This document shows, piece after piece, positions 26,133 to 40,849 of a stretch of 64,000 bases of DNA. The notes under the pieces were generated by a model. It worked only from the letters and a program-made list of their open reading frames with translations. It ran no database searches and was not told where the DNA came from. The DNA is from Rothia halotolerans. GTDB taxonomy: Bacteria > Actinomycetota > Actinomycetes > Actinomycetales > Micrococcaceae. The position numbers and the translations under genes were made by a program. The first letter of the stretch is position 1, and each line of letters begins with the position of its first letter. The stretch lies in NCBI RefSeq assembly GCF_004136635.1, contig NZ_NOIU01000002.1:186001-250000 (forward strand). The letters run 5' to 3'.

Positions 26133-27446
26133 CTAGTCGGTACCCGCGGTATCGTCAGTCGCTGCCCCGACCGCGGGGACGAGCAGGGGCAGGGTGTTGC
26201 GGATCTGCCACTCCCTCGCGCCCAGCTCCCGCAGCGCCCCCTCGATCTCCTCGGGCCCGGCGCCGGCGTGGTCCCAGCACAGGCGGCGCAGATGGTCCGG
26301 GGTGAGCAGGTTCTCCTGGGGCAGGCCGAGCCGCTCGGCGCCGGCGAGGACCTCCTCGCGGGCCGCCGTGAGCGCCCGGGCGGCCTCGGGGCGCTTGGCC
26401 GACCACGCCTTGACCGGCGGGGGAGCGCTGCTCGGCAGGTGCACCGGAACGGGCTCGGGGTCGGCGAGGGCCTCCTGCACGGCGCGGATCCAGCGCACCG
26501 CCTCGCGCTTGATGAGCTTGGTGTGGAAGCCGGGGATGCGCTGCAGGGCGGGCACCGTGCGCGGCATGGCCCGGGCCGCGGCGATCAGGGCGGAGTCGCC
26601 CAGCAGGCGCTTGGGGGCGATGTCCTTGGCGCGGGCGAGGTGCTCCCGCTCCCACCACAGGTTGCGCAGGGCGGTCAGCTGGCGTGGGGAGCGCAGGGCG
26701 CGCAGGCCCTTGGTCCGGCGCCAGCGCTCCGGGTCCTCGGCGGGCTCGGGAGCCGCGCACAGCGCCTCGAACTCCTCCTCGGCCCAGGCCAGCTTGCCCT
26801 GCTCCTCGAGCAGCTCGGCCACCGCCTCGCGCAGGTCGCCCAGCAGCTCGACGTCGAGCGCGGCGTAGTTCAGCCAGGGCCGGGGCAGGGGGCGCTGGGA
26901 CCAGTCGGCGGCCGAGTGCTCCTTGGCCAGCCGGTAGCCCAGGATCTCCTCGGTCATGGCGCCGAGGCTGACCCGGGGGAGGCCGGCGAGGCGCCCGGCG
27001 AGCTCGGTGTCGAAGAGGCTGCGGGGGCGCATCCCGGTCTGGCGCAGGCTCGGAAGGTCCTGCGTCGAGGCGTGGATGATCCACTCGGCGTCCGCCAGGG
27101 CCTCGTCGAGGGGCTCGAGGTCCTCGAACGCCTCGGGGTCGATCAGCAGGATGGGGGAGTCGCCGCGCTTGACCTGCACCAGGAAGGGGCGCTGGCCGTA
27201 GCGGATGCCGGAGGCGCGCTCGGTGTCGATCGCGGCGGGGCCCTCGTGCGAGGCCAGGACGTCCGCTGCCTGCTCCAGTCCGCGCTGGGTGTCGATGACG
27301 TCGGGGACGCCCGCGAAGGGGGCGTCGAGGCGGACGACCTCCGGGATGCTGAGCTCGGGGTCCAGCCCCAGCTCCTCCGCGGAGGAGAGCGAGCTCTTAC
27401 CGTAGGCGAGGGGGTCCGCCGCCGCGAGCTGCCGGTCCTCGGTCAT
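26133..27446 (-). CDS. HRDC-domain ribonuclease D family 3'-5' exonuclease
   Basis: 437 residues. The DEDD exonuclease domain (about 50-235) shows the first acidic pair in AAIDTERASG (Asp74, Glu76), the second-motif aspartate in IHASTQDLPSL and the third in YAALDVELL. An HRDC domain (about 250-335) follows, then a second helical HRDC-like C-terminal domain. Members trim the 3' ends of structured RNA. The gene is 70 bases downstream of DUF3000 on the same strand, an order conserved in actinobacteria. Confidence 0.93.
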   Translation of the reverse strand: MTEDRQLAAADPLAYGKSSLSSAEELGLDPELSIPEVVRLDAPFAGVPDVIDTQRGLEQAADVLASHEGPAAIDTERASGIRYGQRPFLVQVKRGDSPILLIDPEAFEDLEPLDEALADAEWIIHASTQDLPSLRQTGMRPRSLFDTELAGRLAGLPRVSLGAMTEEILGYRLAKEHSAADWSQRPLPRPWLNYAALDVELLGDLREAVAELLEEQGKLAWAEEEFEALCAAPEPAEDPERWRRTKGLRALRSPRQLTALRNLWWEREHLARAKDIAPKRLLGDSALIAAARAMPRTVPALQRIPGFHTKLIKREAVRWIRAVQEALADPEPVPVHLPSSAPPPVKAWSAKRPEAARALTAAREEVLAGAERLGLPQENLLTPDHLRRLCWDHAGAGPEEIEGALRELGAREWQIRNTLPLLVPAVGAATDDTAGTD

Positions 27447-27516
27447 GACTGGATCACGGGCTGGTTTCCATCCTTCGCTTCTCGCCGACGTGCCGGCCGC
27501 GCGTGGACGGCCAGGA

Positions 27517-28239
27517 CTAGTTTAGGCCATGGACCGGACGCGGCCGCGCGGGGCCCTCGTCTCCCGCGGGCGGGCGGGCGCCCTGCTCGTGGAAGGGGCG
27601 GCCGTGCTCCGGAGCGGGGCGCGCCGGCTCGGGCTTGGGGCGGTCGTGCTGCGGCGCAGGACCGGCAGGCTCGGGAGCGGAGCGGGCCGGCTCGGGCGGC
27701 AGGCCGGCGCAGACGCCGACGAGGTCGCCCCAGGCCTCCAGGTGCCGGCGCATGTCCGGCCCCTGCGGGGTCCAGGAGGCGCGCAGCTCGATCTCGGTGC
27801 TCTGCTGGCCTCCGGACAGGGAGCCGAAGCCGTGGGAGAAGGAGCGGGTCGCCGTCCCGGCCGCGTGCGCGTGGAGCGCGCCGCGGCCCTCGAGCGCCTC
27901 GAGCAGCCAGTCCCACGCGACCTGGGAGAAGAGCTCGTCGGAGACGACGTCGGGCTCGACGGCGGCGCGGAGGTAGGTCACCACGCGCAGGTCCCCGCCC
28001 CACGGCTCCGGGCCGGCGGGGTCGTGCAGCAGGATGAACCGCCCGGTCGCGAGCGGGCGGTCGGCGTCGTGCGGATCCTGGACCCCCGCCGAGAAGCTCA
28101 CGCCGTGCGGTGCCAGGCGGGCCGGGGAGGGCTGGCGGGAGGACAGGCGCAGGCCCGGCCGGAGCCGTGCATGTCCCAGCTGGTCCAGCGCTTCGCTGAA
28201 CCGGCGCGGCGTCTCCGGACGGGCTGCTTCGATGCTCAC
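27517..28239 (-). CDS. DUF3000 family protein
   Basis: 240 residues from a GTG (GTGAGCATCGAAGC). The conserved DUF3000 core (about 10-190) includes PHGVSFSAGV, GRFILLHDPAGPEPWGG and a long beta-rich segment ending in the DLVGVCAGLPPEP helix. The last ~55 residues are a low-complexity tail with a repeated PxPEP/RPAPEHGRP pattern, not part of the family. Actinobacterial, function unknown, no membrane segment or catalytic motif recognised. It precedes RNase D in a probable operon. Confidence 0.9.
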   Translation of the reverse strand: MSIEAARPETPRRFSEALDQLGHARLRPGLRLSSRQPSPARLAPHGVSFSAGVQDPHDADRPLATGRFILLHDPAGPEPWGGDLRVVTYLRAAVEPDVVSDELFSQVAWDWLLEALEGRGALHAHAAGTATRSFSHGFGSLSGGQQSTEIELRASWTPQGPDMRRHLEAWGDLVGVCAGLPPEPARSAPEPAGPAPQHDRPKPEPARPAPEHGRPFHEQGARPPAGDEGPARPRPVHGLN

Positions 28240-28318
28240 GCCCTCAGGCTATGCTCGCCCCGCGACGCCGTCCGGTTGCCACGCCGAGCCGCTCGGTACT
28301 GATGGGTACCGTCCGGTA

Positions 28319-28780
28319 CTAGTCCCGGTCGGAGTCCTCCGGCGCGCCGGGGGCGTCCGGGCGGAACTCCAGGGAGACGGAGTTCATGCAGTAGCGCAGG
28401 TCGGTCGGGGTGCCGAAGCCCTCGCCCTCGAAGACGTGGCCCAGGTGGGAGCGGCACGCGGCGCACCGGACCTCGACGCGCTCCATGCCGAGCGTGGCGT
28501 CGCGGATGTAGACCACGCGGTCCTCGGCCAGCGGGGCGAAGAAGGAGGGCCAGCCGCAGCGGGCGTCGAACTTCGTGTCCGCGCTGAACAGCTCGGCGCC
28601 GCAGGCCCGGCAGTAGTAGGTGCCGGGGGAGTACTCGTCCCAGTACTCCCCGCTGAAGGGCCGCTCGGTGCCTGCCTCGCGCAGCACGGCGAACTGCTCC
28701 GGCGAGAGGATCTCCCGCCACTGCGCCTCGGTCCGCCCGAGCGCGGCCCGGTTCTCGAAGGGGTTCCCGTTCTCAGTCAT
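28319..28780 (-). CDS. msrB: Peptide-methionine (R)-S-oxide reductase
   Basis: 153 residues. MsrB reduces the R-epimer of methionine sulfoxide in oxidised proteins. It contains the structural zinc site formed by two CxxC pairs (Cys57/Cys60 and Cys106/Cys109), the RCGWPSFF motif (Cys75 is the likely resolving cysteine) and the catalytic cysteine in LRYCMNS (Cys131); most family members have Ile instead of Met in this motif. The start ATG overlaps the end of the upstream unknown gene by eight bases, so both are translated from one mRNA. Confidence 0.96.
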   Translation of the reverse strand: MTENGNPFENRAALGRTEAQWREILSPEQFAVLREAGTERPFSGEYWDEYSPGTYYCRACGAELFSADTKFDARCGWPSFFAPLAEDRVVYIRDATLGMERVEVRCAACRSHLGHVFEGEGFGTPTDLRYCMNSVSLEFRPDAPGAPEDSDRD

Positions 28781-29264
28781 CGACGTACCCCGTCCCCCAG
28801 TAGAGGTGCAGCACGGGCACCCCCAGGGTCTTCTCGGCTCGGTTCGACCAGTGGATGTTGAAGGTGTCCTCGATCGGATGGGGATCGGTGATGATCAGCA
28901 CCTGCTCGGCGCCGTCGGCGACCTCCTCCCGCATCGCGGCGAGGGGATCCCCCACGGCGGTGCGTCCCCGCACCGTGTACCCCCGGGCGCGGAGCTCCTC
29001 CACGGAGGCGTCCAGGATCCCCCGGGCCTCGGACTCCAGCGTCTGCGGGCCCTTCTCGGAGGAGGTGACGACGTCGACCGCCTCCTTGAAGTCCAGCAGC
29101 GTCAGCTGGTCCAGGAACTCCAGCCACAGGTTCTTCTTCAGCTCCGCGGGGACCATCAGGCGGATCTCGGTCGGCTCGTCGTCCTGGCGCGGTGCGAAGG
29201 CGTCGATGTTCTCGATGTCGGTCGGGCCCAGGATGGCCTCGGTCACCACAAGTACTGTGCTCAT
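28773..29264 (-). CDS. Conserved protein of unknown function, possible Usp/Rossmann-like fold, coupled to msrB
   Basis: 163 residues. The pattern is alternating beta-strands and helices: an N-terminal strand (MSTVLVVTEAI), an amphipathic helix (AELKKNLWLEFLDQLTLL), and a C-terminal strand-loop (EQVLIITDPHPIEDTF) ending in VPVLHLYWGTGYVDD. This resembles universal-stress-like alpha/beta proteins but no ATP-binding G-2x-G-9x-G motif is present, so the assignment is tentative. A minus-strand -10-like TAGGGT lies six bases before the ATG, suggesting a leaderless mRNA. Overlap with msrB hints at an oxidative-stress link, which is inference. Confidence 0.75.
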   Translation of the reverse strand: MSTVLVVTEAILGPTDIENIDAFAPRQDDEPTEIRLMVPAELKKNLWLEFLDQLTLLDFKEAVDVVTSSEKGPQTLESEARGILDASVEELRARGYTVRGRTAVGDPLAAMREEVADGAEQVLIITDPHPIEDTFNIHWSNRAEKTLGVPVLHLYWGTGYVDD

Positions 29265-29462
29265 GCCCTCACCCTACCGGCCGGGGCCGGCCCCTCGGCG
29301 CGTCGCGCGCGCGGCGTTCGCCGCCGGCCGCACGCAAGGGGGGAGGATGGGTCCTGAGGGAGCGCGCCGTCCCGTCAGAGGGCCGGGGCCTTGCGCGGGC
29401 CGGGCGGCTCGCGGGGCCGCCCGCTCCCGCCGGATCGCCGCCGGAGGAAGGACGAGGAGAAG

Positions 29463-30707
29463 ATGAGCGAGCAGACCATCCTCAGCCCCTGGCGCTCGGG
29501 CCTGCGCACCGGGCTGATCGCGGGCGCGGGGATCGCCGGGATCGGCGTCGGCGTGGTGGCCTCCCTGGCGGGGTACTACGCCCGGTTCGTGGTGACCCCG
29601 CCCAAGCTCGGGGCCAAGGAGGACGTGCCGGTGCTCGGCGTCGGCTTCGACACGGCCGCCCCCGAGGAGGGCCGGACGCCGACCTCGATCACCCTGCCCG
29701 CTACGCCCTACACGCTGGACCCCGGCCGCTATCTGCTGACCTTCGACGCCGGCCGCGGCAGCGCCGAGGTGGGCGAGCTCCTGGCCTACTCGCCCCGCCA
29801 GTGCACCGTGACCCGCGCGGTGCAGCGGGTGCACGGCGGGGACCTCGCCTCCGCCGTGCGCGGGAGGTGGTCGGGCTCGGTCCTCCTCGACCCGGGCCAC
29901 GCGGGGTACCGCTACGCCGACGTCACGCTCGAGCTGCCGGTGGGCCGTGCCCCGGCCTGGACGGTGCCGGCGCCCGAGGGCTCCGACTGCGCCACCTGGG
30001 CCGTGATGGTCCACGGCCGCGGCGCCTCCCGCCGGGAGACCCTGCGGGCCCTGGACGCGACGCAGCGCCTCGGCATGGCCAGCGTCCATCCCTCGTACCG
30101 CAACGACGGGGAGGCGCCGCCCTCCGAGGACGGCCGCTACGGGCTCGGCTTCACCGAGTGGGAGGACGTGGACGCCGCGATCGGCTACGCCCTGGAGCAG
30201 GGGGCGCGCGACGTCGTCCTGTTCGGCTGGTCGATGGGCGGCGCGATCGTCCTGCAGGCGGCGGACAAGTCGCGCTACGCGGACTCGATCCGGGCGCTGG
30301 TGCTGGACGGGCCCGTGGTGGACTGGTTCGAGCTCATCCGTCACCACACCGAGATGATGCGCCTGCCGCTGCGGATGGGCCAGCTGGTCGCCGACATCCT
30401 GGCGACCCCGCGCTCGAAGCTGATGACCGGGCTGGACAGCCCCATCCTGCTGACCGACCTCGACTGGCTCACCCGCAGCGCCGAGCTCACGACGCCGACG
30501 CTGATCATCCACTCCCTGCGCGACGACTTCGTCCCCGCCGCGACCTCGGCCGAGCTCGCCGCCCGCAGCCCGGTGGTGGACTACGTCCCCTTCCAGGAGG
30601 GGCAGCACACCAAGGAGTGGAATGTGGACCCGGAGCGGTGGAACCGGACGGTGACGCAGTGGCTGCCGCCGCACCTGAGCCGCGGGGACGGAGCGGGCTC
30701 GGCCTGA
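29463..30707 (+). CDS. Alpha/beta hydrolase, membrane-anchored
   Basis: 414 residues. A single N-terminal hydrophobic helix (GLIAGAGIAGIGVGVVASLAGYYA, about 17-40) anchors the protein. A beta-rich segment (about 50-170) precedes the hydrolase domain. The nucleophile elbow is FGWSMGG, the oxyanion region VMVHGRGASRRETLR, the acid lies in HSLRDDFVP and the catalytic histidine in EGQHTKEWN. This pattern is common among actinobacterial serine hydrolases; the substrate is unknown. GAGGAGAAG immediately precedes the ATG at 29463. It is divergent from the msrB-linked gene (198-base region) and followed by a repeat array. Confidence 0.88.
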   Translation: MSEQTILSPWRSGLRTGLIAGAGIAGIGVGVVASLAGYYARFVVTPPKLGAKEDVPVLGVGFDTAAPEEGRTPTSITLPATPYTLDPGRYLLTFDAGRGSAEVGELLAYSPRQCTVTRAVQRVHGGDLASAVRGRWSGSVLLDPGHAGYRYADVTLELPVGRAPAWTVPAPEGSDCATWAVMVHGRGASRRETLRALDATQRLGMASVHPSYRNDGEAPPSEDGRYGLGFTEWEDVDAAIGYALEQGARDVVLFGWSMGGAIVLQAADKSRYADSIRALVLDGPVVDWFELIRHHTEMMRLPLRMGQLVADILATPRSKLMTGLDSPILLTDLDWLTRSAELTTPTLIIHSLRDDFVPAATSAELAARSPVVDYVPFQEGQHTKEWNVDPERWNRTVTQWLPPHLSRGDGAGSA

Positions 30708-30715
30708 GGGCGCCC

Positions 30716-30834
30716 GGGCGGGGGTGTCCGGACCGCAACGGGCCCGGGCAGGGACACTCGGCCGTAACGGATGAGAGCGGGGGCGTCCGGCCTGTCAGAG
30801 GCCGAGGCGCGGGCCGTCCGCACTGCAGGCCGCC
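30716..30834. repeat. Degenerate ~30-bp tandem repeat array
   Basis: Four imperfect units start at about 30716, 30746, 30775 and 30806 with the form G(G/A)GC-GGGG-GYGTCCGG. The third unit (GAGCGGGGGCGTCCGGCC) closely matches the fourth unit of the array at 12941-13072 (GAGCGGGGGCCATCCGGCC). Both arrays directly follow a TGA stop. The rest of this 215-base gap holds only the zapE promoter candidate. Confidence 0.55.
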
Positions 30835-30858
30835 GGGTGCCGGCCGGCGTCGAGGGTC

Positions 30859-30864
30859 TAGACT
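30859..30864 (+). promoter_or_regulatory. Candidate -10 element for zapE
   Basis: TAGACT, identical to the hexamers upstream of DUF5998 and acnA, lies 58 bases before the zapE ATG. No clear -35 is visible. Confidence 0.35.
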
Positions 30865-30922
30865 CGCAGTGGGCCGCCGCGGCGCCCCGCACCCCCAGCA
30901 CCCAGCAGACTCAGTGAGGAAC

Positions 30923-31999
30923 ATGGTGTCCGATTCGCCCATCCACCTGGTAGACCGCAGCCCTCGGGTCTCGGCGGAGGAGCTCCTGGAGGGCTTCCGC
31001 CCCTCCGAGCGCTTCGGTGAGGTCTCCTTCGACACCTACATCCCGGACCCGAGCCAGCCCTCCCAGGAGGAGGCGCGGGAGGCCCTGCGCCGCTTCGCGG
31101 AGTCCATCGAGGCCCCCTCCGGCGGCGGGCTGCTCGGCAGGCTCTTCGGCAGGCGCGCGGCGAAGGACGCCAAGGCCGGCATCTACCTCGACGGCGGCTT
31201 CGGCGTCGGCAAGACCCACCTGCTCGCCTCGCTGTACCACGCGGTCTCCGGGCCCAAGGCCTTCGGGACCTTCGTGGAGTACACCAATCTCGTCGGCGCC
31301 CTCAGCTTCCGCAAGACCGTCGAGGCCCTGAGCGGCTACCGGCTGGTGTGCATCGACGAGTTCGAGCTGGACGACCCCGGGGACACCGTCCTGATGTCGC
31401 GGCTGATGCGCGAGCTCTCCGACGCCGGGGTCCGCCTCGCGGCGACCTCCAACACCCTGCCCGGATCCCTGGGCGAGGGCCGCTTCGCCGCCCAGGACTT
31501 CAAGCGGGAGATCCAGGTGCTCTCGGATCAGTTCGAGGTGCTGCGCATCGACGGTGAGGACTACCGCCACCGCGGGCTCCCCCAGGCCCCTGAGCCGCTG
31601 GCCGCCCAAGAGCTCGACGCCGCGGCCGCCTCCGCCTTCCCCGCCGACGCCGCGGTCGCCTCCGACGACTTCCCCGCCCTGATCGAGCACCTCTCCCGGG
31701 TGCACCCTAGCCGCTACCGGCAGCTCATCGAGGGGCTGCGGGGCATCGTGTGGCGCGAGGTCGAGACGATCACCGAGCAGGCCGTCGCGCTGCGCTTCGT
31801 GGTCCTCGCCGATCGCCTCTACGACAAGGACCTGCCGATCGTCTCCTCCGGCGTCCCCTTCGACCGGATCTTCACCGAGGAGATGATGGCCGGCGGCTAC
31901 CAGAAGAAGTACTACCGCGCCGTCTCCCGGCTGACGGCCCTGGCCCGCGAGGGCCTGGAGCGCGTCGAGGGGACGGAACGGGAGCCCTCAGCCCGGTGA
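30923..31999 (+). CDS. zapE: Cell division protein ZapE / AFG1-like P-loop ATPase
   Basis: 358 residues. The AFG1/LACE1 family ATPase has Walker A GGFGVGKTHL (91-100), Walker B LVCIDEFELDD (141-151), a sensor-like ATSNTLP and the C-terminal FDRIFTEEMMAGGYQKKYYRA block. In proteobacteria ZapE is a Z-ring-associated, ATP-dependent protein; in actinobacteria the role is inferred by family only. GTGAGGA lies six bases before the ATG at 30923. The stop TGA shares its last base with the ATG of the TauE gene, so the two are co-translated. Confidence 0.92.
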   Translation: MVSDSPIHLVDRSPRVSAEELLEGFRPSERFGEVSFDTYIPDPSQPSQEEAREALRRFAESIEAPSGGGLLGRLFGRRAAKDAKAGIYLDGGFGVGKTHLLASLYHAVSGPKAFGTFVEYTNLVGALSFRKTVEALSGYRLVCIDEFELDDPGDTVLMSRLMRELSDAGVRLAATSNTLPGSLGEGRFAAQDFKREIQVLSDQFEVLRIDGEDYRHRGLPQAPEPLAAQELDAAAASAFPADAAVASDDFPALIEHLSRVHPSRYRQLIEGLRGIVWREVETITEQAVALRFVVLADRLYDKDLPIVSSGVPFDRIFTEEMMAGGYQKKYYRAVSRLTALAREGLERVEGTEREPSAR

Positions 32000-32742
32000 T
32001 GCTGTGGGCCGTGCTCCCCGCCGTCATGGTCGGCGCGGTGCTGCAGAGGATCTGCGGGACCGGGGTGGGGCTGATCGTGGCCCCCACCTTCGCCGTGCTG
32101 CTCGGCGGCGGCCACGGCGTCTTCGTCACCAACATGACGACCTTCGTCTCCGGCCTGATCCTGACTCTCTCCCTCTGGCGCGAGGTCAACTGGCGGCAGT
32201 GGCTGGCCCTGTGCGCGGCGGGGATCCTGGGGACGGTCCCCGGCGCCCTCGTGGTCAGGCACACGCCCGGCCCGGTGCTGCAGGTGGTGGTGGGCGGCGT
32301 CGTGCTGGTGGCCATGGCGGCGATCCTGAGCGGTGCCGCGGGACGACGACGCAGCGGCCGCGGGGTCACGGCGCTGGCCGGTGGAGCGGGCGGGCTGCTC
32401 AACGTCACCGCCGGCGTCGCCGCGCCCGCGATGGTCGTGTACTCGCGGGTCACCCGGTGGGACCAGCGCGAGTACGCCGCCACGATGCAGCCGGTGTTCA
32501 TGACCCTCGCCGCGCTCTCACTGGGGGCGAAGCTGGTGATCGGCGGGGCCGACCCCGAGCCGGCGCCCGGGCCCTCGCTGTTCCTCGGGGTCGCGGCGGC
32601 CGTCGTCGTCGGCATCCTCGTGGGGGCCCCGCTGGCCCGGCGCGTGTCCGCGGAGAGGGCACGGACCCTGGCGCTGCTCCTGGCGGGGGCCGGGGCGGTG
32701 GTCGCGGTCGTGCGCGGCGTCGTGGGCCTGGTCGCGGGCTAG
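31999..32742 (+). CDS. TauE/SafE family sulfite/sulfonate exporter-like permease
   Basis: 247 residues, about eight hydrophobic helices arranged as two related halves, with the family's NMTTFVSGLILTLSLWREVNWRQW segment and short loops. Family members export sulfite or organosulfonates, but many actinobacterial members are uncharacterised. The start overlaps the zapE stop (TGATG); GTG at 31996 is an alternative. A strong terminator follows at 32811. Confidence 0.88.
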   Translation: MLWAVLPAVMVGAVLQRICGTGVGLIVAPTFAVLLGGGHGVFVTNMTTFVSGLILTLSLWREVNWRQWLALCAAGILGTVPGALVVRHTPGPVLQVVVGGVVLVAMAAILSGAAGRRRSGRGVTALAGGAGGLLNVTAGVAAPAMVVYSRVTRWDQREYAATMQPVFMTLAALSLGAKLVIGGADPEPAPGPSLFLGVAAAVVVGILVGAPLARRVSAERARTLALLLAGAGAVVAVVRGVVGLVAG

Positions 32743-32810
32743 GCGTCCTCGAGCCGGGAGAGGCGCGGGGCCCGAGGGCGCGTCACTCCCGCTGATCCCC
32801 TGGACAGCAC

Positions 32811-32844
32811 AAAGCCCCGGCTCCCTAGGGGGAGCCGGGGCTTT
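32811..32844. terminator. Bidirectional terminator between tauE and tRNA operon
   Basis: A perfect 15-bp stem, AAAGCCCCGGCTCCC (32811-32825) and GGGAGCCGGGGCTTT (32830-32844), with a four-base loop. The A/T-flanked stem can serve both the rightward TauE transcript and the leftward tRNA transcript. Confidence 0.85.
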
Positions 32845-32849
32845 CCTTG

Positions 32850-32921
32850 TGCGCGATACTGGGATCGAACCAGTGACCTCTTCCGTGTCAGGGAAGCGCG
32901 CTACCGCTGCGCCAATCGCGC
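32850..32921 (-). tRNA. tRNA-Val (GAC anticodon)
   Basis: 72 nt. A seven-base acceptor stem, GCGCGAT/ATCGCGC, a D-arm GGCGCAGCGGTAGCGC, an anticodon arm CTTCC-CTGACAC-GGAAG and a T-arm with GGTTCGATCC; discriminator A73. CCA is not encoded. Last gene of a three-tRNA minus-strand transcript. Confidence 0.96.
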
Positions 32922-32951
32922 TCGTCACACAAGTATACCTGTGCGCTTGCG

Positions 32952-33022
32952 AGGTGAGGACGGGATTCGAACCCGCGTACACGGCTTTGCAGGCCGCTGC
33001 CTAACCGCTCGACCACCTCACC
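32952..33022 (-). tRNA. tRNA-Cys (GCA anticodon)
   Basis: 71 nt. Acceptor stem GGTGAGG/CCTCACC, anticodon loop CTGCAAA giving GCA, T-loop GGTTCGAATCC and U73, the discriminator used by cysteinyl-tRNA synthetase. CCA is not encoded. Confidence 0.96.
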
Positions 33023-33076
33023 ATGTCCTGGTCGTGGAACTCAGGGCCATGCCTCACGGTCATGAGGCAATCTGCG

Positions 33077-33149
<73 letters not shown>

Positions 33150-33223
33150 ATGTCCAGCGTTTCCGGCCACCCGTGGATGACCTGCTCGGCGTTCCTTCCG
33201 GTCCGTCGCGCTGACAGATGAAT

Positions 33224-33251
33224 ACTCTACACACCTTCCCGGGGGATGCAA
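33224..33251 (-). promoter_or_regulatory. Promoter of the tRNA-Gly-Cys-Val operon
   Basis: Reading leftward, TTGCAT (33246-33251) and TAGAGT (33224-33229) are separated by 16 bases, giving a vegetative-type promoter about 75 bases upstream of tRNA-Gly. Confidence 0.6.
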
Positions 33252-33276
33252 AATCGGTGCCCCTCAAGGTCGAGAT

Positions 33277-33332
33277 CCCCGGAATTCCGGGGTGAAAAGG
33301 GGCTCCGCGGCTCCTGAAACCGCTGATCAGCG
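33277..33332. repeat. Two perfect palindromes between divergent tRNA units
   Basis: CCCCGGAATTCCGGGG (33277-33292, 16 bp) and CGCTGATCAGCG (33321-33332, 12 bp) lie in the intergenic region between the leftward and rightward tRNA promoters. Neither belongs to a recognised terminator; an operator or cruciform role is only a possibility. Confidence 0.5.
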
Positions 33333-33382
33333 CGAAATCGCCTCATGTGTTGTGCGTCACCGCTTTGAGGGGGTCCCTCGAA

Positions 33383-33411
33383 TTGACTCGCACGGGAGGG
33401 TCCTCTAATGT
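33383..33411 (+). promoter_or_regulatory. Promoter of tRNA-Val (CAC)
   Basis: TTGACT (33383-33388) and TAATGT (33406-33411) are separated by exactly 17 bases. Transcription would start about 33418, eight bases before the mature tRNA. This is the closest match to a sigma-70 consensus in the window. Confidence 0.8.
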
Positions 33412-33425
33412 AGTTCGAGTGCTGA

Positions 33426-33497
33426 GCGCGATTGGCGCAGTGGTAGCGCGCTTCGTTCACACCGAAGAGGTCACTGGTTCGAACCCAGTATCGCGCA
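33426..33497 (+). tRNA. tRNA-Val (CAC anticodon)
   Basis: 72 nt. Nearly identical to the tRNA-Val (GAC) at 32850-32921 but on the opposite strand; differences cluster in the anticodon arm (CTTCG-TTCACAC-CGAAG). Acceptor stem GCGCGAT/ATCGCGC, A73. Single-gene unit closed by a terminator. Confidence 0.96.
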
Positions 33498-33525
33498 CGT
33501 AACGCAGCTGTCGGACAGCTGGAAG

Positions 33526-33564
33526 AAAGGCCCCCGCCGGAAGCATCCGGACGGGGGCCTTTTT
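33526..33564 (+). terminator. Intrinsic terminator of tRNA-Val (CAC)
   Basis: AAGGCCCCCGCCGG pairs with CCGGACGGGGGCCTT (one bulged A) around a short loop, followed by a T-rich tract ending at 33564. Confidence 0.85.
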
Positions 33565-33640
33565 CGCTGGGACCCCCGGCGGCTTCAGTCAGACGGATCG
33601 AGACCGTGCGCGAGCGCGAGGAAGAACCGGGTGTGCTCCC

Positions 33641-34528
33641 ATGACCCAACCCAGGCTGGCGACCCAGACCGACCAGGGGCGCATGTACGCCCGCGCCGTC
33701 GGCGGGGAGCCCGAGGTTCCCTCCATCACCACCGTCATCGGCCAGCAGGCCCAGGACCTGGGCGGCTGGCACGGGTACATGGCGGCCAAGGCGGCTCTGG
33801 AGGACGACAGGTCCATCAGGGCGGGGCGCTCCGCCGGTCTGCGCCACGCCGTCATCCGCGACGCCGCGGGCGCTGCGGAGCGCTACCGGGACCAGGCCGC
33901 CGCACGCGGGGACCGGATCCACGAGTACTGCGAGAACGTCGCGCTGCGCGCCCTGGGGGAGGAGCACGACGTCGAGGGCACCCGCGAGACCCTCGCCCTG
34001 CACGCCGAGTCCGCCTGGGCCGACCGCTTCGACGAGTGGTGGGAGCTCTACCGCCCCGAGCCGATCGCGACCGAGCTGACCGTGTGGAACCAGACCGTGG
34101 GCTACGCCGGGACCCTGGACCTGGTGGCCCGGATCGGCGGCCGCGTCTGCCTCATCGACTACAAGACCAAGGGCACCGACCGGAAGGGCCGGGTCAAGCC
34201 TCTCGACGCGAAGGTGATCATGCAGCTGGTGGCCGGCGTCAAGGCCGAGGAGTCCCTCGTCGACGCCGAGACCGGCAGCTGGGAGCCCTGGCCCCACGCC
34301 GACGCCCCCGTCCTGCTGGGCGTCGCCCTGGGCGAGACCGAGGTGCGCGCGCAGCAGGCGAACCCGGACCTGCTGGAGGGCAACTGGTACAAGTTCTGCG
34401 CGCTGCGCAAGGTGTGGGGGCACCAGCGCGCGCTCGAGCTGCAGTGCCAGGACCCCTCGCAGCAGCCGCTCATGGCGGTCGTGCCCCCGCCGCTCTCCGT
34501 GGATCTGCCCCGCAAGAACGCCAGCTAG
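33641..34528 (+). CDS. PD-(D/E)XK nuclease-fold protein (RecB/Cas4-like)
   Basis: 295 residues, no named family recognised. The motif order is that of RecB-type nucleases: a GDRIHEYCEN helix with His94, an acidic residue in ATELTVW (Glu145), GTLDLVARIGG (Asp160) and LIDYKTK (Asp173, Lys175), followed by a helix with MQL (Gln195). There are no CxxC clusters, so it lacks the iron-sulfur module of Cas4/AddB. It could cut or bind DNA ends. It lies 22 bases upstream of def on the same strand, and a poor GTG/CTC-rich leader precedes the ATG. No other repair or CRISPR gene is near. Activity is inferred from motif conservation only. Confidence 0.78.
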   Translation: MTQPRLATQTDQGRMYARAVGGEPEVPSITTVIGQQAQDLGGWHGYMAAKAALEDDRSIRAGRSAGLRHAVIRDAAGAAERYRDQAAARGDRIHEYCENVALRALGEEHDVEGTRETLALHAESAWADRFDEWWELYRPEPIATELTVWNQTVGYAGTLDLVARIGGRVCLIDYKTKGTDRKGRVKPLDAKVIMQLVAGVKAEESLVDAETGSWEPWPHADAPVLLGVALGETEVRAQQANPDLLEGNWYKFCALRKVWGHQRALELQCQDPSQQPLMAVVPPPLSVDLPRKNAS

Positions 34529-34550
34529 CGCCGGCCAACGAAGGAACGCC

Positions 34551-35249
34551 ATGACAGTACTGCCCATCCGCACGATCGGCGACCCCGTGCTGCGGACCCC
34601 CTGCGAGCCCGTCACCGTCTTCGACGCCGAGCTCTCCCGCCTGATCGACGACATGGTGGAGACCATGTTCGACGTCGGCGGCGTCGGCCTGGCCGGGCCC
34701 CAGGTGGGGGTCTCCCTCCGCCTGTTCACCTACGGCGTCGAGGGGCCCGAGGGGGAGGTCGGCCACGTGATCAACCCGGTCCTGGAGACCGGCGAGGAGC
34801 CCCAGGAGGGCGGCGAGGGCTGCCTCTCCGTCCCGGAGCTCGCCGCGGACCTGCCGCGCCGCCAGTGGGCCCGGGTCACGGGCGTGGACCGGCAGAACCG
34901 GCCCCTGGTGATCGAGGGGGAGGGGCTGCTGGCCCGTTGCCTCCAGCACGAGACCGACCACCTGGACGGGAAGCTCTACATCGACCGCCTGGCGGGCGAG
35001 GAGCGCCGCCGGGTGCTCCGGGCGATCCGCGCGGGCGAGTACGAGGGGATCTCCGCCGGCGTGCGGCGCGAGCGCGGCGGGCGCACCGGCAGCGGCTTCG
35101 GCCCCGGCGCCTCCTTCGGCGGCTCCGCGGCCCCCGGCGGGGGATCGGCCTTCGGGAGCCCCCGGTCCGCCGGCAAGGGCTCCTCCTTCGGGTCCGCCCG
35201 GCCCGCCGGGCAGGGCTCATCCTCCGGCGCCGCGCGGGGAGGCCGCTGA
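34551..35249 (+). CDS. def: Peptide deformylase with Gly/Ser-rich C-terminal extension
   Basis: 232 residues. Removes the formyl group from nascent N-terminal methionine. The three motifs are visible: GVGLAGPQVGV (usual GxGLAAxQ, here with Gly-Pro), EGCLSVP (Cys91) and QHETDHLDG (His133, Glu134, His137), the last two binding the metal. The catalytic domain ends near residue 180; the last ~50 residues are an unusual low-complexity tail with repeats of the type GSxFGS and AGxGSS, absent from typical deformylases. The stop shares one base with the fmt ATG. Confidence 0.95.
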   Translation: MTVLPIRTIGDPVLRTPCEPVTVFDAELSRLIDDMVETMFDVGGVGLAGPQVGVSLRLFTYGVEGPEGEVGHVINPVLETGEEPQEGGEGCLSVPELAADLPRRQWARVTGVDRQNRPLVIEGEGLLARCLQHETDHLDGKLYIDRLAGEERRRVLRAIRAGEYEGISAGVRRERGGRTGSGFGPGASFGGSAAPGGGSAFGSPRSAGKGSSFGSARPAGQGSSSGAARGGR

Positions 35250-36187
35250 TGCGCGTGCTCTACGCCGGGACGCCGGAGATCGCCGTCGCGCCCCTGGAGG
35301 CGCTGATCGAGGCCGGGCACGACGTCGTGGGTGTGCTGACCCGCCCCGACGCGCCCCTGGGCCGCAAGCGGGTGCTGACCCCCTCGCCGGTCGCGGCGCG
35401 CGCCGAGGAGCTCGGCCTGCCGGTCATCCGTGCCCACCGCTACGACGACGAGGCGCACGCGGCGGTGCTGCGGCTGGCCCCCGAGGCCGCGGCCGTGGTC
35501 GCCTACGGGGCGCTGCTGCCGCGCCGGGCGCTGGAGGCCGTGCCCCACGGCTGGATCAACCTCCACTTCTCCCGCCTGCCGGCCTGGCGCGGCGCGGCCC
35601 CCGTGCAGCGCGCCCTGATGGCCGGTGAGACCGTCCTCTGGGCCTCCACCTTCCTCATCGAGGAGGGCATGGACACCGGCCCCGTCTTCGACGTCCTGAG
35701 CGAGCCCGTGGGCCCCGAGGACACCGCGGGCACGATGCTGCGCCGCCTCGCCGTCTCCGGCGGGCGGATGTTGGCGGGGACGCTCGGCGAGATCGAGGCC
35801 GGGACGGCCCGCCCCCGCCCCCAGGAGGGGGAGCCCACCCGCGCCGCGAAGCTCGTCCTCGAGGACGGGCGCGTCGACTGGGCCCGCCCGGCGGCGGGGA
35901 TCGAGGCCCAGGCCCGCGGCGCCACGCCCGAGCCCGGCCTCTGGACCACCCTGGAGGGCCAGCGGGTCAAGCTCGCGGGCCTGCGGGCCGCCCCGCCCGA
36001 GGACGATGACGACGCCGCCCGGGTCCCCGGCGAGGCGAGGCTCGCGGGCCGCGAGGTCCGGGTGCGCGCGGCCGACGGCGACGTCGTCGTGGCCCGGATC
36101 CAGCCGGCGGGCAAGAAGATGATGGACGCGGCCGACTGGGCCCGCGGAGCAGGACGACTGACGCACGGGAGCGTGAGATTCGCATGA
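35249..36187 (+). CDS. fmt: Methionyl-tRNA formyltransferase
   Basis: 312 residues. Transfers a formyl group from 10-formyl-tetrahydrofolate to initiator Met-tRNA. The N-terminal formyltransferase domain (about 1-185) shows the catalytic triad: Asn104 and His106 in INLHFSRLPAWRGAAP and Asp142 in EEGMDTGPVF. The C-terminal OB-like domain (about 205-305) binds tRNA. Start and stop overlap neighbours (TGATG with def and ATGA with rsmB), placing it inside a tight def-fmt-rsmB operon. Confidence 0.96.
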   Translation: MRVLYAGTPEIAVAPLEALIEAGHDVVGVLTRPDAPLGRKRVLTPSPVAARAEELGLPVIRAHRYDDEAHAAVLRLAPEAAAVVAYGALLPRRALEAVPHGWINLHFSRLPAWRGAAPVQRALMAGETVLWASTFLIEEGMDTGPVFDVLSEPVGPEDTAGTMLRRLAVSGGRMLAGTLGEIEAGTARPRPQEGEPTRAAKLVLEDGRVDWARPAAGIEAQARGATPEPGLWTTLEGQRVKLAGLRAAPPEDDDDAARVPGEARLAGREVRVRAADGDVVVARIQPAGKKMMDAADWARGAGRLTHGSVRFA

Positions 36188-37914
36188 GCCAGCAGCAGCC
36201 ACCACGATCCGGAGGGCCGCGCCGCGGCGGGCCCGAGGGCGGCGGCGACCGCCGCGGAGGAGCCGAGGGACGCGGTGGCAGCCGCGGCGGGTCCGAGGAG
36301 CGCGGCGACCGCCGCGGAGGACCCGGCGGTCGGCCGCCCCGGGACGGCGGATCGCGCCGCAACGCCAAGGGGCGCGAGCGCAACCGCGGCGGCGAGCGCG
36401 ACCGGCGGTACTCGTCCTCGGCCCCGAGCCAGCGGCGCCGGGTCGCGGACCCGTCCCGCCTGGTCGCCTTCGAGGTACTCCAGGCGGTGGACACCGAGGA
36501 CGCCTACGCCAACCTCGTGCTGCCCCAGCGGATCCGCCACCACCGGCTGGACCGGCGCGACGCCGCCTTCGCCACCGAGCTGACCTACGGCTCGCTGCGC
36601 GAGCGGGGCACCTACGACGCCGTCCTGGCCCGCTGCGTCGACCGCCCCCTGGAGAAGATCGACCAGAAGATCCTCACCACCCTGCGCCTGGGCGCCCACC
36701 AGCTGCTCGGCATGCGCACGCCCGTGCACGCCGCGCTCAACCAGACCGTGGGGCTGGCGCGCGGCGTCGTCGGCGCGGGGCCCTCGACCATGGTCAACGC
36801 CGTCCTGCGCCGGGTCTCGGAGAGGAGCTGCCAGGAGTGGATCGCGGAGCTCACCGAGGGGGTCACGGACGACCTCAAGCGGCTCTCGATCGAGCGCTCC
36901 CACCCCGTGTGGATCGTCCGGGCGATGCGCCAGGCCCTGGCCGCCCACGGGCGCGTGCCCACCGAGGTCGAGGAGCTGCTGGCCGCGGACAACCTCAGCC
37001 CGCTGGTCCACCTGGTCGCCCTGCCGGGCATCGGGGACCTCCGCGAGGCCGAGGAGAACGGCGCCGAGGCAGGGGAGCTGGTCGAGGGCTCGGCCACCTA
37101 CCGGCACGGCGACCTCGGCCGGATGGAGTCGGTGCGCTCCGGGCGGGTGAGGGCGCAGGACGCCGGCTCCCAGATCGTCGCCCGGGCCCTCGCGGCCGCG
37201 CCCCTGGAGGGGGCCGACGAGACGTGGCTGGACCTGTGCGCCGGCCCCGGCGGCAAGGCCGCCCTGCTCGGGGCGCTCGCCGCCCGCCGCGGCGCGCACC
37301 TGGTGGCCAACGAGGTCTCCGAGCACCGGGCCCGGCTGGTCCGGGAGTCGCTGCGGGTCCTGCCCGAGCAGACCTACGGCGTCGTCGTCGGCGACGGCCG
37401 GGAGATCGCCGCGACGCTGGAGGAGGGCCCGCTGCCCGAGCCGGTCGAGCTGGCCGTGGAGGCCTTCGGTGGGAGCGGGGAGATCTTCGACCGCGTCATG
37501 GTCGACGCGCCCTGCTCCGGGCTGGGGGCGCTGCGCCGCCGCCCCGAGGCCCGCTGGCGCAAGACGCCCAGCGACATCGCCGACCTGGTGCCCCTGCAGA
37601 CCGATCTGCTGCGCGCCGCCGTCGGCGTCACCCGGCCCGGCGGCGTCGTGGCGTACGTGACCTGCTCGCCGCACGCGGCGGAGACGCAGAACGTGCTCCT
37701 GGACGTCCTGGAGGGCGGGGACGTCGAGCTGCTGGACACCGCCGGGGTCATCCGCTCGGTCATGCTCCCGGGCCCCGCCCGCGACGAGCTGACCGGCCTG
37801 GAGATGCCGGGCACGACGCCGGCCGAGGGCTTCGAGCGCGCCACGACGGTCCAGCTGTGGCCGCACGTCCACGGCACCGACGCGATGTTCCTCGCGCTGC
37901 TGCGCCGGCGGTAG
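36184..37914 (+). CDS. rsmB: 16S rRNA (cytosine-967-C5) methyltransferase with Arg/Gly-rich N-terminus
   Basis: 576 residues. The first ~85 residues are almost only Arg, Gly, Glu and Pro with RGG and DRRGG repeats, an extension outside the family. Then follow the NusB-like domain (about 88-225; VAFEVLQAVDTEDAYANLVL), and the RsmB/Nol1 catalytic domain (about 235-575) with LDLCAGPGGKAALLGAL for SAM and the cysteines of VDAPCSGLGALRR and YVTCSPHAAET. It methylates a helper cytosine of 16S rRNA. The start overlaps the fmt stop (ATGA). The next gene is convergent. Confidence 0.95.
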   Translation: MSQQQPPRSGGPRRGGPEGGGDRRGGAEGRGGSRGGSEERGDRRGGPGGRPPRDGGSRRNAKGRERNRGGERDRRYSSSAPSQRRRVADPSRLVAFEVLQAVDTEDAYANLVLPQRIRHHRLDRRDAAFATELTYGSLRERGTYDAVLARCVDRPLEKIDQKILTTLRLGAHQLLGMRTPVHAALNQTVGLARGVVGAGPSTMVNAVLRRVSERSCQEWIAELTEGVTDDLKRLSIERSHPVWIVRAMRQALAAHGRVPTEVEELLAADNLSPLVHLVALPGIGDLREAEENGAEAGELVEGSATYRHGDLGRMESVRSGRVRAQDAGSQIVARALAAAPLEGADETWLDLCAGPGGKAALLGALAARRGAHLVANEVSEHRARLVRESLRVLPEQTYGVVVGDGREIAATLEEGPLPEPVELAVEAFGGSGEIFDRVMVDAPCSGLGALRRRPEARWRKTPSDIADLVPLQTDLLRAAVGVTRPGGVVAYVTCSPHAAETQNVLLDVLEGGDVELLDTAGVIRSVMLPGPARDELTGLEMPGTTPAEGFERATTVQLWPHVHGTDAMFLALLRRR

Positions 37915-37934
37915 CGGCCCGCGGGGCCGGTCCG

Positions 37935-38693
37935 CTAGAAGTACACGCAGACGGGCCGCCCCTGCGGACCGTCGACCACCTCCACCGGCGTGTTGAAGAT
38001 CCGGCTCAGGACCTCCCCGCGCACGATCTCCTCCGGCGGGCCGACCTCGCTGAGCCGCCCGTCGTTCATCGCCACGATCCGGTCGGCGTAGTGCGCCGCG
38101 TAGTTGATGTCGTGCAGCACGATCACGATGGTGCGTCCCAGCTCGTCGGCGGCCCGGCGCAGCTGCTTCATCATCTGCACCGAGTGCTGCATGTCCAGGT
38201 TGTTCAGCGGCTCGTCCAGCAGCACGTAGTCGGTGTCCTGGGCCAGGACCATCGCCACGTAGGCGCGCTGGCGCTGGCCGCCGGAGAGCTGGTCGAGGAA
38301 CCGATCCTGCAGCTCGCCCAGGTTCAGGAACTCGACGGCTTGGGAGATGTGCCGCTCGTCCTCGGCCGTCAGCCGCCCGCGCGAGTGCGGGTAGCGGCCG
38401 AATCCGACCAGCTGCCGCACGGTGAGCCGGGTGACGAAGTGGTTCTCCTGGCGCAGGATGGACAGCACCTTGGCGATGGTCTTCGACGGCGTCCGGGCGA
38501 CGTCGTGCCCGCCCACCCGGATGGTCCCCGCGTCGGGGTCCTGGAGCCGGCCGATCATGGTCAGCACGGTCGACTTCCCCGCCCCGTTGGGACCCACCAG
38601 GGCGGTCACGCCGCCCCGCGGGATGTCCAGGGTGACGGGGCCGACGGCGACGTCGTCGCTGTACCTCTTGAAGACGTTCTCGAGCGAGATCAC
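37935..38693 (-). CDS. ABC transporter ATP-binding protein, iron/siderophore
   Basis: 252 residues from a GTG. Walker A GPNGAGKST, Q-loop ILRQENHF, signature LSGGQRQRAYVAMVLAQ, Walker B DYVLLDEPLNNLD and the switch histidine in VIVLHDINYAAHYADRI identify an ATPase of the FepC/YclP subfamily. It energises the two FecCD-type permeases upstream. The GTG overlaps the preceding permease stop (GTGA). It ends 20 bases from rsmB, which reads toward it. The cassette probably ends here. Confidence 0.94.
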   Translation of the reverse strand: MISLENVFKRYSDDVAVGPVTLDIPRGGVTALVGPNGAGKSTVLTMIGRLQDPDAGTIRVGGHDVARTPSKTIAKVLSILRQENHFVTRLTVRQLVGFGRYPHSRGRLTAEDERHISQAVEFLNLGELQDRFLDQLSGGQRQRAYVAMVLAQDTDYVLLDEPLNNLDMQHSVQMMKQLRRAADELGRTIVIVLHDINYAAHYADRIVAMNDGRLSEVGPPEEIVRGEVLSRIFNTPVEVVDGPQGRPVCVYF

Positions 38694-39730
38694 AGTCGCC
38701 CCTTTCGCAGCAGGACGGTGAGGAAGACGATGCCGCCGACGAGCTCGACGATGATCGTCACGGCCCCGCCGGCGTAGAAGACGTTGCGGAGCACGAAGTA
38801 GGCCAGCGCCAGCACGGTGTACCCGGCGAGGAACGCGACGGGCAGGACGAGGCGGTGGTCGTAGGTGTCGGTCAGGGAGTAGGCGAGCGTGGCGACGAGG
38901 AACCCGAGGAAGGTCATGGGGCCCACCAGCGAGGTGGTCATCGCCATCATGATCGAGACGAGCAGCAGCGTCGTCATCAGCTCCCGGCGGTGGTTCAGGC
39001 CCAGGTTGTTCGTGGCGTCGCGGCCCAGGGCCATGAGGTTCATCCGCCGCGAGCGCAGCCAGATGGCGACGCCGGTCACCAGGCACACGGGGATGACGTA
39101 GGGGAGGTTCTCGGTCGAGGCGTTGGAGATGCTGCCGAGCAGCCGGGCGCTCAGGACGTCGAACTCGTTGGGCTCCAGCAGCCGCTGCATGAAGGTGGAG
39201 AGGGAGCCGAGCCCGCCCCCGATCACGACGCCGACCAGCAGCATGATGTGCAGGTTCCCGAAGCGCCCGGAGAGCAGCCAGGAGTACAGCAGCACCGCCA
39301 TGAGCACCATGATCCCGGACTGGAGGAAGAAGCGGGCCGGGCCGTCCAGCAGCGTCACCCCCGAGATGCCGAGGAAGAAGACCGCGGCCGTCTGGATCGC
39401 GACGTACATCGACTCGAAGCCCATGATCGAGGGCGTGAGGATCCGGTTCTGCGTGGCGGTCTGGAAGGAGACGGTCGCGAAGGACTGGCAGAACGCGACC
39501 ACGAGGATCACCACGACGGTCTCGATCCGCAGCCCCGCGATGGTCACCCACTGCCGGGACATGAAATCGGCCTTGTTGCCGTAGCCGAGGATCCCGTAGG
39601 TGGCGAGCAGGGCGAGGACGACGAGCACGCCGAGGACCACCGCGTAGCGCCGGCGCCCGGACGTGGTGGCGAAGGGACCGGTGCGCCGGGTGTCCGCCGC
39701 GGCGCCGGAGCGGGTCAGGGTCTCAGACAT
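38690..39730 (-). CDS. Iron-siderophore ABC transporter permease (FecCD family), second
   Basis: 346 residues with about nine hydrophobic segments, after a ~30-residue hydrophilic start with arginine cluster. FecCD features: FQTATQNRILTPSIMGFESMY in the first cytoplasmic loop and TTSLVGPMTFLGFLVATLAY near the coupling helix. It resembles YclO-type permeases rather than BtuC. It overlaps the other permease by eight bases and its own stop lies in the GTG of the ATPase, so the three genes are coupled. Confidence 0.93.
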   Translation of the reverse strand: MSETLTRSGAAADTRRTGPFATTSGRRRYAVVLGVLVVLALLATYGILGYGNKADFMSRQWVTIAGLRIETVVVILVVAFCQSFATVSFQTATQNRILTPSIMGFESMYVAIQTAAVFFLGISGVTLLDGPARFFLQSGIMVLMAVLLYSWLLSGRFGNLHIMLLVGVVIGGGLGSLSTFMQRLLEPNEFDVLSARLLGSISNASTENLPYVIPVCLVTGVAIWLRSRRMNLMALGRDATNNLGLNHRRELMTTLLLVSIMMAMTTSLVGPMTFLGFLVATLAYSLTDTYDHRLVLPVAFLAGYTVLALAYFVLRNVFYAGGAVTIIVELVGGIVFLTVLLRKGRL

Positions 39731-40754
39731 GGCGGCGCCTCCTGACCAGCAGGGTCACGAAGACCGCCGCGCCGACCACGCCCAGGATGAGGGAGACGGG
39801 CACCTCGAAGGGCATGATGATGGTCCTTCCGATGATGTCGCACACGGTGACCACCCAGATGCCGGTCAGGCACACCCACGGCAGGTTGGTGCGCAGGTTG
39901 TCGCCCCGGATGAGGGAGACGACGTTGGGGACGATCAGCCCGAGGAAGGGCAGCACCCCGATCACCACCGTGGTCACGCCGGTGACCAGCGCGACCATCG
40001 TCACGCCGAGGAAGATGACGAGGTTGTAGTTGAGGCCGACGTTGGTCGCGACGTCCTTGCCGAGCCCGGCGACCGTGAACTGGTCCGCCACGACGAAGAC
40101 GAGGACCGCGACGATCAGCACGATCCACAGCAGCTCGTAGCGCCCGCGCACGACGCCGGTGAAGCTGCCCGCGAACCAGATGCCGAGGCTCTGCAGGAGG
40201 TCGTACTGCAGGGCGATGAAGGTGGAGATCGAGCTGACGACGGCGCCGAGCATGATGCCGATGATCGGCACGATCAGGGAGGAGCGCAGGGTGACCCGGC
40301 GCAGGAAGAGGAAGAAGACCATGGTGCCGACGAAGGAGAACAGCACCGCGCCGACCATGCGCTCGGTGATGCTCGGGGAGGGCAGCACGATCATGGTCAC
40401 CAGCAGGCCGAGACCGGCCCACTCGGTGGTGCCGGTGGTGGTCGGCTCGACGAAGCGGTTCTGCGTCATCTGCTGCATGACCAGCCCGGCCATGGACATC
40501 GCGGCGCCGGCGAGCACGAGGGAGATCGTGCGCGGCACGCGGGTGATCCAGAACATCTCCCAGCCGCCCTCGCCGCCGGCGATGTCGTAGACCCCCACGA
40601 ACAGCGAGAGCACGAGCAGGGCCAGGGTGGCGAGCAGGCCGAGCAGCAGCGGCCAGGTGAGGCGCCATCGGCGTCGGCGGGGCGTCCCGGTGCCGGGCGC
40701 GCCCGGCGGGGCGCCGTCGTCGGGTCTCTCGGGCGGGGTGATCGTCAGGCTCAC
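39723..40754 (-). CDS. Iron-siderophore ABC transporter permease (FecCD family), first
   Basis: 343 residues with about nine hydrophobic segments. FecCD hallmarks: RVPRTISLVLAGAAMSMAGLVMQQMTQNRFVEPTTTG and GVLPFLGLIVPNVVSLIRGDN. The GTG at 40754 begins VSLTITPPE; it has only a weak purine stretch upstream. A longer ATG at 40817 would begin inside the intra-operon hairpin and is disfavoured. A short basic cytoplasmic start (PRRRRWR) precedes the first helix. It resembles YclN-type permeases. Confidence 0.9.
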   Translation of the reverse strand: MSLTITPPERPDDGAPPGAPGTGTPRRRRWRLTWPLLLGLLATLALLVLSLFVGVYDIAGGEGGWEMFWITRVPRTISLVLAGAAMSMAGLVMQQMTQNRFVEPTTTGTTEWAGLGLLVTMIVLPSPSITERMVGAVLFSFVGTMVFFLFLRRVTLRSSLIVPIIGIMLGAVVSSISTFIALQYDLLQSLGIWFAGSFTGVVRGRYELLWIVLIVAVLVFVVADQFTVAGLGKDVATNVGLNYNLVIFLGVTMVALVTGVTTVVIGVLPFLGLIVPNVVSLIRGDNLRTNLPWVCLTGIWVVTVCDIIGRTIIMPFEVPVSLILGVVGAAVFVTLLVRRRRHV

Positions 40755-40808
40755 GTGCTTCGTCTCGGTCGGGGGCGCTGGGACGGCGGGCCGGCTGGGC
40801 CCGATGAT

Positions 40809-40849
40809 GCCCCGCATCCCCGCCCGGGCGGCGGGCGGGGATGCGGGGC
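40809..40849 (-). terminator. Strong hairpin between binding-protein gene and permeases
   Basis: A perfect 18-bp stem (40809-40826 with 40832-40849), five-base loop, no U tract. It lies just after the substrate-binding-protein gene within the operon, where it may partly terminate or stabilise the 3' end, giving more binding protein than permease. Confidence 0.7.

Follow-up and report, generated by a model that had tools for sequence, protein, structure and literature searches.

Positions 33641..34528 (+ strand) of the window, the 64,000-nucleotide stretch of Rothia halotolerans DNA analysed here, hold a real and conserved gene, hereafter exo, whose predicted product is a single-domain PD-(D/E)XK nuclease. 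We consider it probable, though well short of certain, that this product is a nuclease of a mobile-element family which trims single-stranded DNA ends and flaps much as MGME1 does, and that the gene was fixed once in the ancestor of the Micrococcaceae and has since been a vertically inherited core gene. The single-strand specificity, polarity, threading and flap trimming of the product, like the single fixation and the passage from mobile element to chromosome, are properties that we infer. The kind of enzyme is known, and phage members have already been published under the label "Cas4 family exonuclease"; its core status in the Micrococcaceae is apparently undescribed in the literature searched, where full-text searches gave no report on a chromosomal Micrococcaceae exo gene among the papers listed (weak evidence of absence).

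A conserved gene with a complete active site

The exo frame opens with ATG and encodes 295 amino acids. An N-terminus conserved across 31 chromosomal homologues, MTxPxLxxxTxxGRMY...PSITTV, speaks for both the start codon and the frame. A minus-strand ORF (33227-34729) overlaps exo at length, and conservation tracks the plus frame; this ORF and the other frames of the GC-rich exo region are mechanical. Evolutionarily, dN/dS was between 0.02 and 0.33 in all 16 hand-picked pairs (14 Micrococcaceae and two from a second family, f11; pairwise Nei-Gojobori, own script), values that indicate purifying selection. The nearest match in named genomes is a Rothia santali protein (94% protein identity), in a search that may leave out the source genome's own records. 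Among profiles, Pfam PDDEXK_1 is barely reached (22.1 bits for a cut-off of 22) and recB is the sole NCBIfam match (E 0.13), while PHROG 298 "exonuclease" is a clear match (E 3e-28) and is matched by 31 of 31 family members tested.

The preliminary description had read a complete H-D-DxK motif set from the translation, and His94, Asp160, Asp173 and Lys175 are exact. Together with E145 and Q195, they are invariant in 31/31 aligned chromosomal homologues, and the active-site set is also unchanged in all 11 rows of another alignment, five of them phage proteins, and in 40/40 rows of a third; judged from these alignments, such conservation is not chance. T30 and W43 are likewise invariant in all three (31, 11 and 40 rows). 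The reported lack of iron-sulfur cysteines was borne out as well: no column of the 31-homologue alignment is an invariant cysteine (best 24/31), three columns carry C at 61-77%, and a Cas4-type four-cysteine 4Fe-4S set is absent. With no invariant cysteine set and no CRISPR context, the identification of exo as a Cas4 proper was rejected.

A predicted fold closest to MGME1

An AlphaFold model built with 40 aligned sequences (mean pLDDT 90.7, pTM 0.82) contains the alpha/beta core of the PD-(D/E)XK fold and matches MGME1, RecE, Dna2, Cas4 and AdnA. In a Foldseek search against the PDB, ranks 1-9 were all MGME1 chains (best E 6e-9), followed in order by ACE1, AdnA, SSO0001 (presumably a Cas4), DinG and RecE. 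VIA-align gave Z 17.5 for MGME1 (5zyu_A, rmsd 3.3, 197 residues aligned), then 11.9 for RecE, 11.5 for Dna2, 11.4 for the putative exonuclease 3l0a, 11.3 for Cas4, 10.9 for AdnA and 8.8 for lambda exonuclease, a family missing from this list not being counted as excluded. When PDB sequences were searched with the exo family profile (A2), MGME1 alone fell below E 0.001 (E 1e-9), and among viral structure models the best match was a Caudovirales PD-(D/E)XK nuclease (TMq 0.69, 26% identity). On the model, MGME1 is clearly the closest fold match of the exo product. Of the "RecB/Cas4-like" label first given to the protein, the RecB-type PD-(D/E)XK fold thus held up in structure prediction, but a strict Cas4 assignment did not, since MGME1 is closest and the relatives by sequence are exonucleases from actinophages and plasmids.

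Human MGME1 (PDB 5zyu, 5zyt, 8xa9) shares with exo an H-E-D-DxK active site with its histidine in a long helix, although identity is only ~18%, and MGME1 is a nuclear-encoded mitochondrial protein whereas exo lies on a bacterial chromosome. In the profile alignment, with numbering counted by hand, exo H94/E145/D160/D173/K175 align to MGME1 H180/E223/D238/D251/K253. PMC6237815 reports reduced activity for MGME1 H180Q, E223Q, D238N and D251N, places Lys253 in the active site, and describes Trp152 as one half of a pin at duplex junctions, the other half being Phe173. Further upstream, T30 aligns to Thr134, a residue that contacts DNA in MGME1, and W43 to Trp152, in an N-terminal segment that scores 0.1 bits alone, and A87 takes the position of Phe173 (hand count from the H180/H94 offset), leaving that residue without counterpart.

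If the MGME1 mechanism is transferred by homology, the exo product would depend on metal and be specific for single-stranded DNA, acting as an exonuclease or flap trimmer. A single-stranded end or flap would thread under a helical arch, including the helix 78-104 that carries H94, into the PD-(D/E)XK centre, where D160/D173/K175 would be the site of two-metal cleavage and H94 and E145 would help to coordinate metal. W43 may sit at the junction between single strand and duplex, in place of the MGME1 pin residue Trp152.

Relatives on phages and plasmids

A tblastn search with exo recovered 100 phage records, mostly from Arthrobacter, Streptomyces and Microbacterium phages, annotated "exonuclease" or "Cas4 family exonuclease" and with 26-30% identity among the 40 listed of the 100. 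The actinophage "Cas4 family exonucleases" of PHROG 298 (phiBT1 gp1, Attoomi, BaileyBlu, Honk) are homologous to exo over ~90% of its length and have the same catalytic residues, but they are found in phage genomes near early genes. For plasmids, tblastn returned ten records, eight from Rhodococcus and one from Frondihabitans at 35-39%, and one from Streptomyces at 26%. Judged by sequence, the Rhodococcus and Frondihabitans megaplasmid proteins (WP_269592618.1, WP_143542517.1; up to 98% coverage, with the N-terminal motif as in exo) are the closest non-chromosomal relatives found, differing from exo in being plasmid-borne, with neither def nor fmt listed in the four stretches read (incomplete gene table). 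Five of the ten plasmid rows (L244, L287 and other Rhodococcus megaplasmids) are annotated "cytochrome", probably a naming error. Viral contigs yielded 20 relatives with a phage protein as query and none with the window exo protein or the f11 protein as query.

A maximum-likelihood tree was built from 59 hand-picked rows (24 of 57 family loci, 13 f11, 4 of 10 plasmid, and 18 phage, prophage or viral-contig sequences; L071, L072 and L187 left out); it is unrooted, and the program warned that long branches meet. In this tree the Micrococcaceae copies form one group with moderate support (67/93) and unite with those from plasmids (99/97), the f11 copies form one group (100/99), and the phage rows, PHROG 298 proteins among them, lie across a supported branch (95/91). 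We read the exo family as one of phage and plasmid nucleases with a chromosomal branch that became fixed in the Micrococcaceae, a direction of transfer that we infer. One 159 kb record titled "Bacteriophage sp." (L286; MT835496.1, 1-6729; UNVERIFIED, human faecal) opens with an f11-type exo and its glnA neighbour, at ~85-97% identity; this opening stretch looks like a mislabelled bacterial chromosome.

These relatives also raise the question of whether exo is instead a recombination exonuclease, which would resect ends for a single-strand annealing protein or RecA as RecE and lambda Exo do. In the five phages read, exo relatives lie within ~5 kb of replication and recombination genes, among them a Holliday junction resolvase (four phages), a primase (three) and a DNA polymerase. 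RecE-like annotations occur among phage relatives of the VWB protein, and RecE is the next fold match after MGME1 by Z. We nonetheless regard this role as unlikely: the window has no recognisable gene for an annealing protein beside exo, 13/13 Micrococcaceae genomes sampled carry large PDDEXK_1 pairs of AdnAB size (not named by profile) for end resection, and the predicted fold is clearly nearer to that of MGME1 than to those of RecE and lambda Exo.

Distribution

Within the genus, 33 of 35 genomes carry exo (those without it are 72% and 87% complete), as do 120/120 sampled Micrococcaceae genomes covering 32/32 genera (seven of the 120 are also in the 35-genome genus sample). Across the order, 32 of 198 sampled genomes matched exo (15 Micrococcaceae, 13 of family f11 and four weak or partial), and across the class, 11 of 246 matched the 31-row profile. 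Of the latter, five loci were read (L187-L191), and several appeared mobile on visual inspection, with ORFs resembling an integrase, SSB or endolysin. In these samples, exo is thus a lineage-specific core gene.

Family f11, which may be the Dermabacteraceae, carries its exo relative at a different fixed locus, beside a glnE-like gene in 13/13 stretches (L073-L085), with a lipA-like gene in 10 of the 13 and glnA- and map-like genes near (names assigned by eye). In one of these stretches (L079), exo was missed by simple gene calling, though the order-sample match falls there. A contig titled "Curtobacterium sp. S6" (L099; NZ_JHEL01000015.1) carries a Rothia-type exo (78% identity) in a Rothia-type locus and looks misnamed.

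The distribution weighs on the idea that exo is an anti-phage or anti-plasmid defence nuclease retained on the chromosome. Defence systems often reuse nucleases of mobile-element type, the type to which the exo family belongs, and the Foldseek matches include ACE1, an Argonaute-associated member of the Cas4 family (E 2e-5). Defence genes, however, are patchy, whereas exo occurs in all family genomes sampled, at one locus nearly throughout and under purifying selection; PADLOC gave noise alone (Cas1g, E 0.022), and neither CRISPR-like repeats in 26000-42000 nor a defence gene among the named neighbours was found. We therefore hold a defence role to be very unlikely, and the family-wide retention of exo favours a housekeeping function in replication or repair.

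An inherited locus upstream of def

In the window, a cluster of tRNA-Val(GAC), tRNA-Cys(GCA) and tRNA-Gly(GCC) (32849..33149, - strand) is followed by a tRNA-Val(CAC) just upstream of exo (33426..33498, + strand; both from ARAGORN). Between the latter and exo lies a terminator-like hairpin followed by a T run (33525..33563, + strand; -32.8 kcal/mol, z -5.0), at which a simple terminator scan listed just a short minus-strand stem; no sigma-70-like promoter for exo was found by simple scan. Downstream, after 22 nt, comes def (peptide deformylase, 34551..35249, + strand; Pfam Pep_deformylase E 5e-46), then an ORF that we take to be fmt, as did the preliminary description (methionyl-tRNA formyltransferase, 35249..36187, + strand; relatives in 20/20 outgroup genomes), and a gene for an rsmB-type 16S rRNA methyltransferase (36184..37914, + strand; Pfam NusB and Methyltr_RsmB-F). 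Because the strong hairpin and T run separate tRNA-Val(CAC) from exo, exo probably opens the exo-def-fmt-rsmB series, which is perhaps one transcription unit. The def product ends in a low-complexity Gly/Ser/Ala/Arg tail (window 35007-35249), its Pfam domain ending at residue 152 of 232.

The other named neighbours are an msrB-type SelR protein, an AFG1-like ATPase, an alpha/beta hydrolase and an ABC/FecCD cluster, and two ORFs near exo have no Pfam match at 1e-5. The view of exo as a stand-alone nuclease with neither repair nor CRISPR genes around it was upheld: a single domain of this size leaves no room for a helicase, Pfam found none in nine scanned neighbours plus def, no repair gene is among the named neighbours, and 26000-42000 holds no CRISPR-like repeats, its direct repeats being five short families (copies at most 120 nt apart).

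Conservation of gene order was followed in the best 80 of 337 confirmed relatives in named genomes, many of which are the same genomes as in the genus, family and order samples. Of these 80 loci, 78 have def after exo in the same orientation, 78 have fmt, and 68 have a tRNA within 1.5 kb upstream of exo; the 12 loci without one are all Rothia (one, L105, has just 199 upstream bases), and two loci (L158 and L171) end near exo. In a second set of 57 family loci, def was present in 53 and fmt in 56. Exceptions include Micrococcus terreus (L133, same contig as L027), without def between exo and fmt, and L034 and L036, which keep exo with def missing at that place. An insert of ~2.3 kb between exo and def in Arthrobacter sp. 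YD4 (L166) is the sole such case in 78 measured loci, and is counted in the 78. The linkage of exo to def, first noted for the window alone, is an inherited, family-wide synteny and not a local oddity. The distance from the exo stop to the aligned def start is at most 30 nt in 22/78 loci and -4 (a 4-nt overlap) in 7/78, which makes translational coupling of exo and def likely in some genera.

At fmt loci of other families, exo was nearby in 0/20 (three of the 20 are f11) and def precedes fmt in 8/20; several (loci L213-L232) have a priA-like ORF, named by eye, upstream of fmt. A gene that we take to be of priA type occurs elsewhere in 13/13 Micrococcaceae checked (in G000 at C4:338068, ~118 kb from exo), and exo as a substitute for priA was rejected on this ground. 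A recent prophage remnant at tRNA-Val was also rejected, as 33501-36500 contains no repeat (at least 12 nt, at most one mismatch) of the final 40 tRNA nucleotides; an old, eroded remnant is conceivable.

That exo serves def-fmt-rsmB itself, for example by processing nucleic acids in a way linked to translation initiation or the adjacent tRNA genes, would fit the near-universal def/fmt synteny in the loci read and the overlap seen in some genera, but is highly improbable given that f11 relatives adjoin a glnE-like gene, that plasmid and phage relatives have no def listed nearby, that L133, L034, L036 and the interrupted locus depart from the arrangement, and that a stable core region keeps its neighbours without any functional link. 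Since the synteny is family-wide and the f11 relative sits at a different locus, the function of exo is not defined by its place beside def.

A candidate trimmer of DNA ends and flaps

Returning to an MGME1-like trimmer, the exo product would most likely remove 5' flaps or other single-stranded ends during replication and repair, the gene having become fixed a single time, in the Micrococcaceae ancestor, at the tRNA-def-fmt locus and passed on vertically since. It would work alongside AdnAB-type helicase-nucleases, PolA with its FEN domain, and ExoVII. AdnAB, RecB and AddAB have the same RecB-type nuclease fold but carry helicase motors, whereas exo is the nuclease module alone.

The nuclease complement was compared in 33 genomes (13 Micrococcaceae, four f11 and 16 others). 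ExoVII (PF02601) is present in 33/33, and a long, PolA-like frame with PF02739 is present in 32/33, the remaining genome (G160, a 500-contig assembly) having a short one alone. Two Micrococcaceae (G039, G042) carry extra AdnAB-like PDDEXK_1 pairs beyond the usual one. With these counterparts present in the 13 family genomes, exo was rejected as a substitute for missing AdnAB, ExoVII or PolA-FEN.

Two accessory nucleases are distributed differently. A stand-alone RecB-type nuclease (PF12705 match at E < 1e-30 in a short frame; 9 of 12 sequences read) was called in 0/17 exo-bearing vs. 12/16 exo-less genomes, or by family in 0/2 vs. 11/14; weaker short-frame PF12705 matches occur in two Micrococcaceae (G044, E 3e-12, 406 codons; G010, E 5e-8, 570 codons). 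A stand-alone FEN (second PF02739 protein; 5 of 14 sequences read) was found in 2/17 vs. 12/16. The RecB-type enzyme of other families (alignment A4), which we take to be Rv2119-like, resembles exo in being a stand-alone PDDEXK_1 protein of similar size, but has four invariant cysteines in 9/9 rows, presumably holding an Fe-S cluster, and resembles Cas4 and AddB by NCBIfam, below cut-offs. The absence of accessory nucleases where exo is present hints at functional replacement. As the exo-bearing side rests on two lineages, however, the pattern serves as a lead, not as a test. In family f4, both genomes lack exo, the stand-alone RecB-type nuclease and the stand-alone FEN, and the single genomes of f13 and f19 lack exo and the RecB-type nuclease, so that exo and the accessory nucleases are not indispensable in the order. 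Nor is exo simply a stand-in for the stand-alone FEN, since 2/13 Micrococcaceae checked keep one.

For Bacillus subtilis, PMC10191290 proposes a discrete FEN, more than Pol I, as the remover of primer flaps, which makes the frequent lack of a stand-alone FEN in Micrococcaceae worth noting. It is tempting, if rather doubtful, to extend the trimmer reading: a captured mobile-element nuclease may have become the core DNA-end and flap trimmer of the family, replacing the cysteine-bearing RecB-type enzyme and the stand-alone FEN as a non-orthologous counterpart of MGME1, with a separate capture or relocation beside glnE in f11. It is pure speculation that exo could supply these bacteria with the 5'-3' nuclease for NucS mismatch repair. 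FenA was set aside for that repair on a fenA deletion that, as reported in PMC11551767, had no effect or showed redundancy.

What had been an anonymous ORF is now a candidate for a core enzyme of genome maintenance in Arthrobacter, Micrococcus, Kocuria, Rothia and their relatives, and a case of a mobile-element nuclease family with a chromosomal, family-wide branch. If the replacement is true, an MGME1-type enzyme would replace, or add to, FEN in flap and DNA-end processing, and the general role of MGME1-type nucleases could be tested in a simple bacterium.
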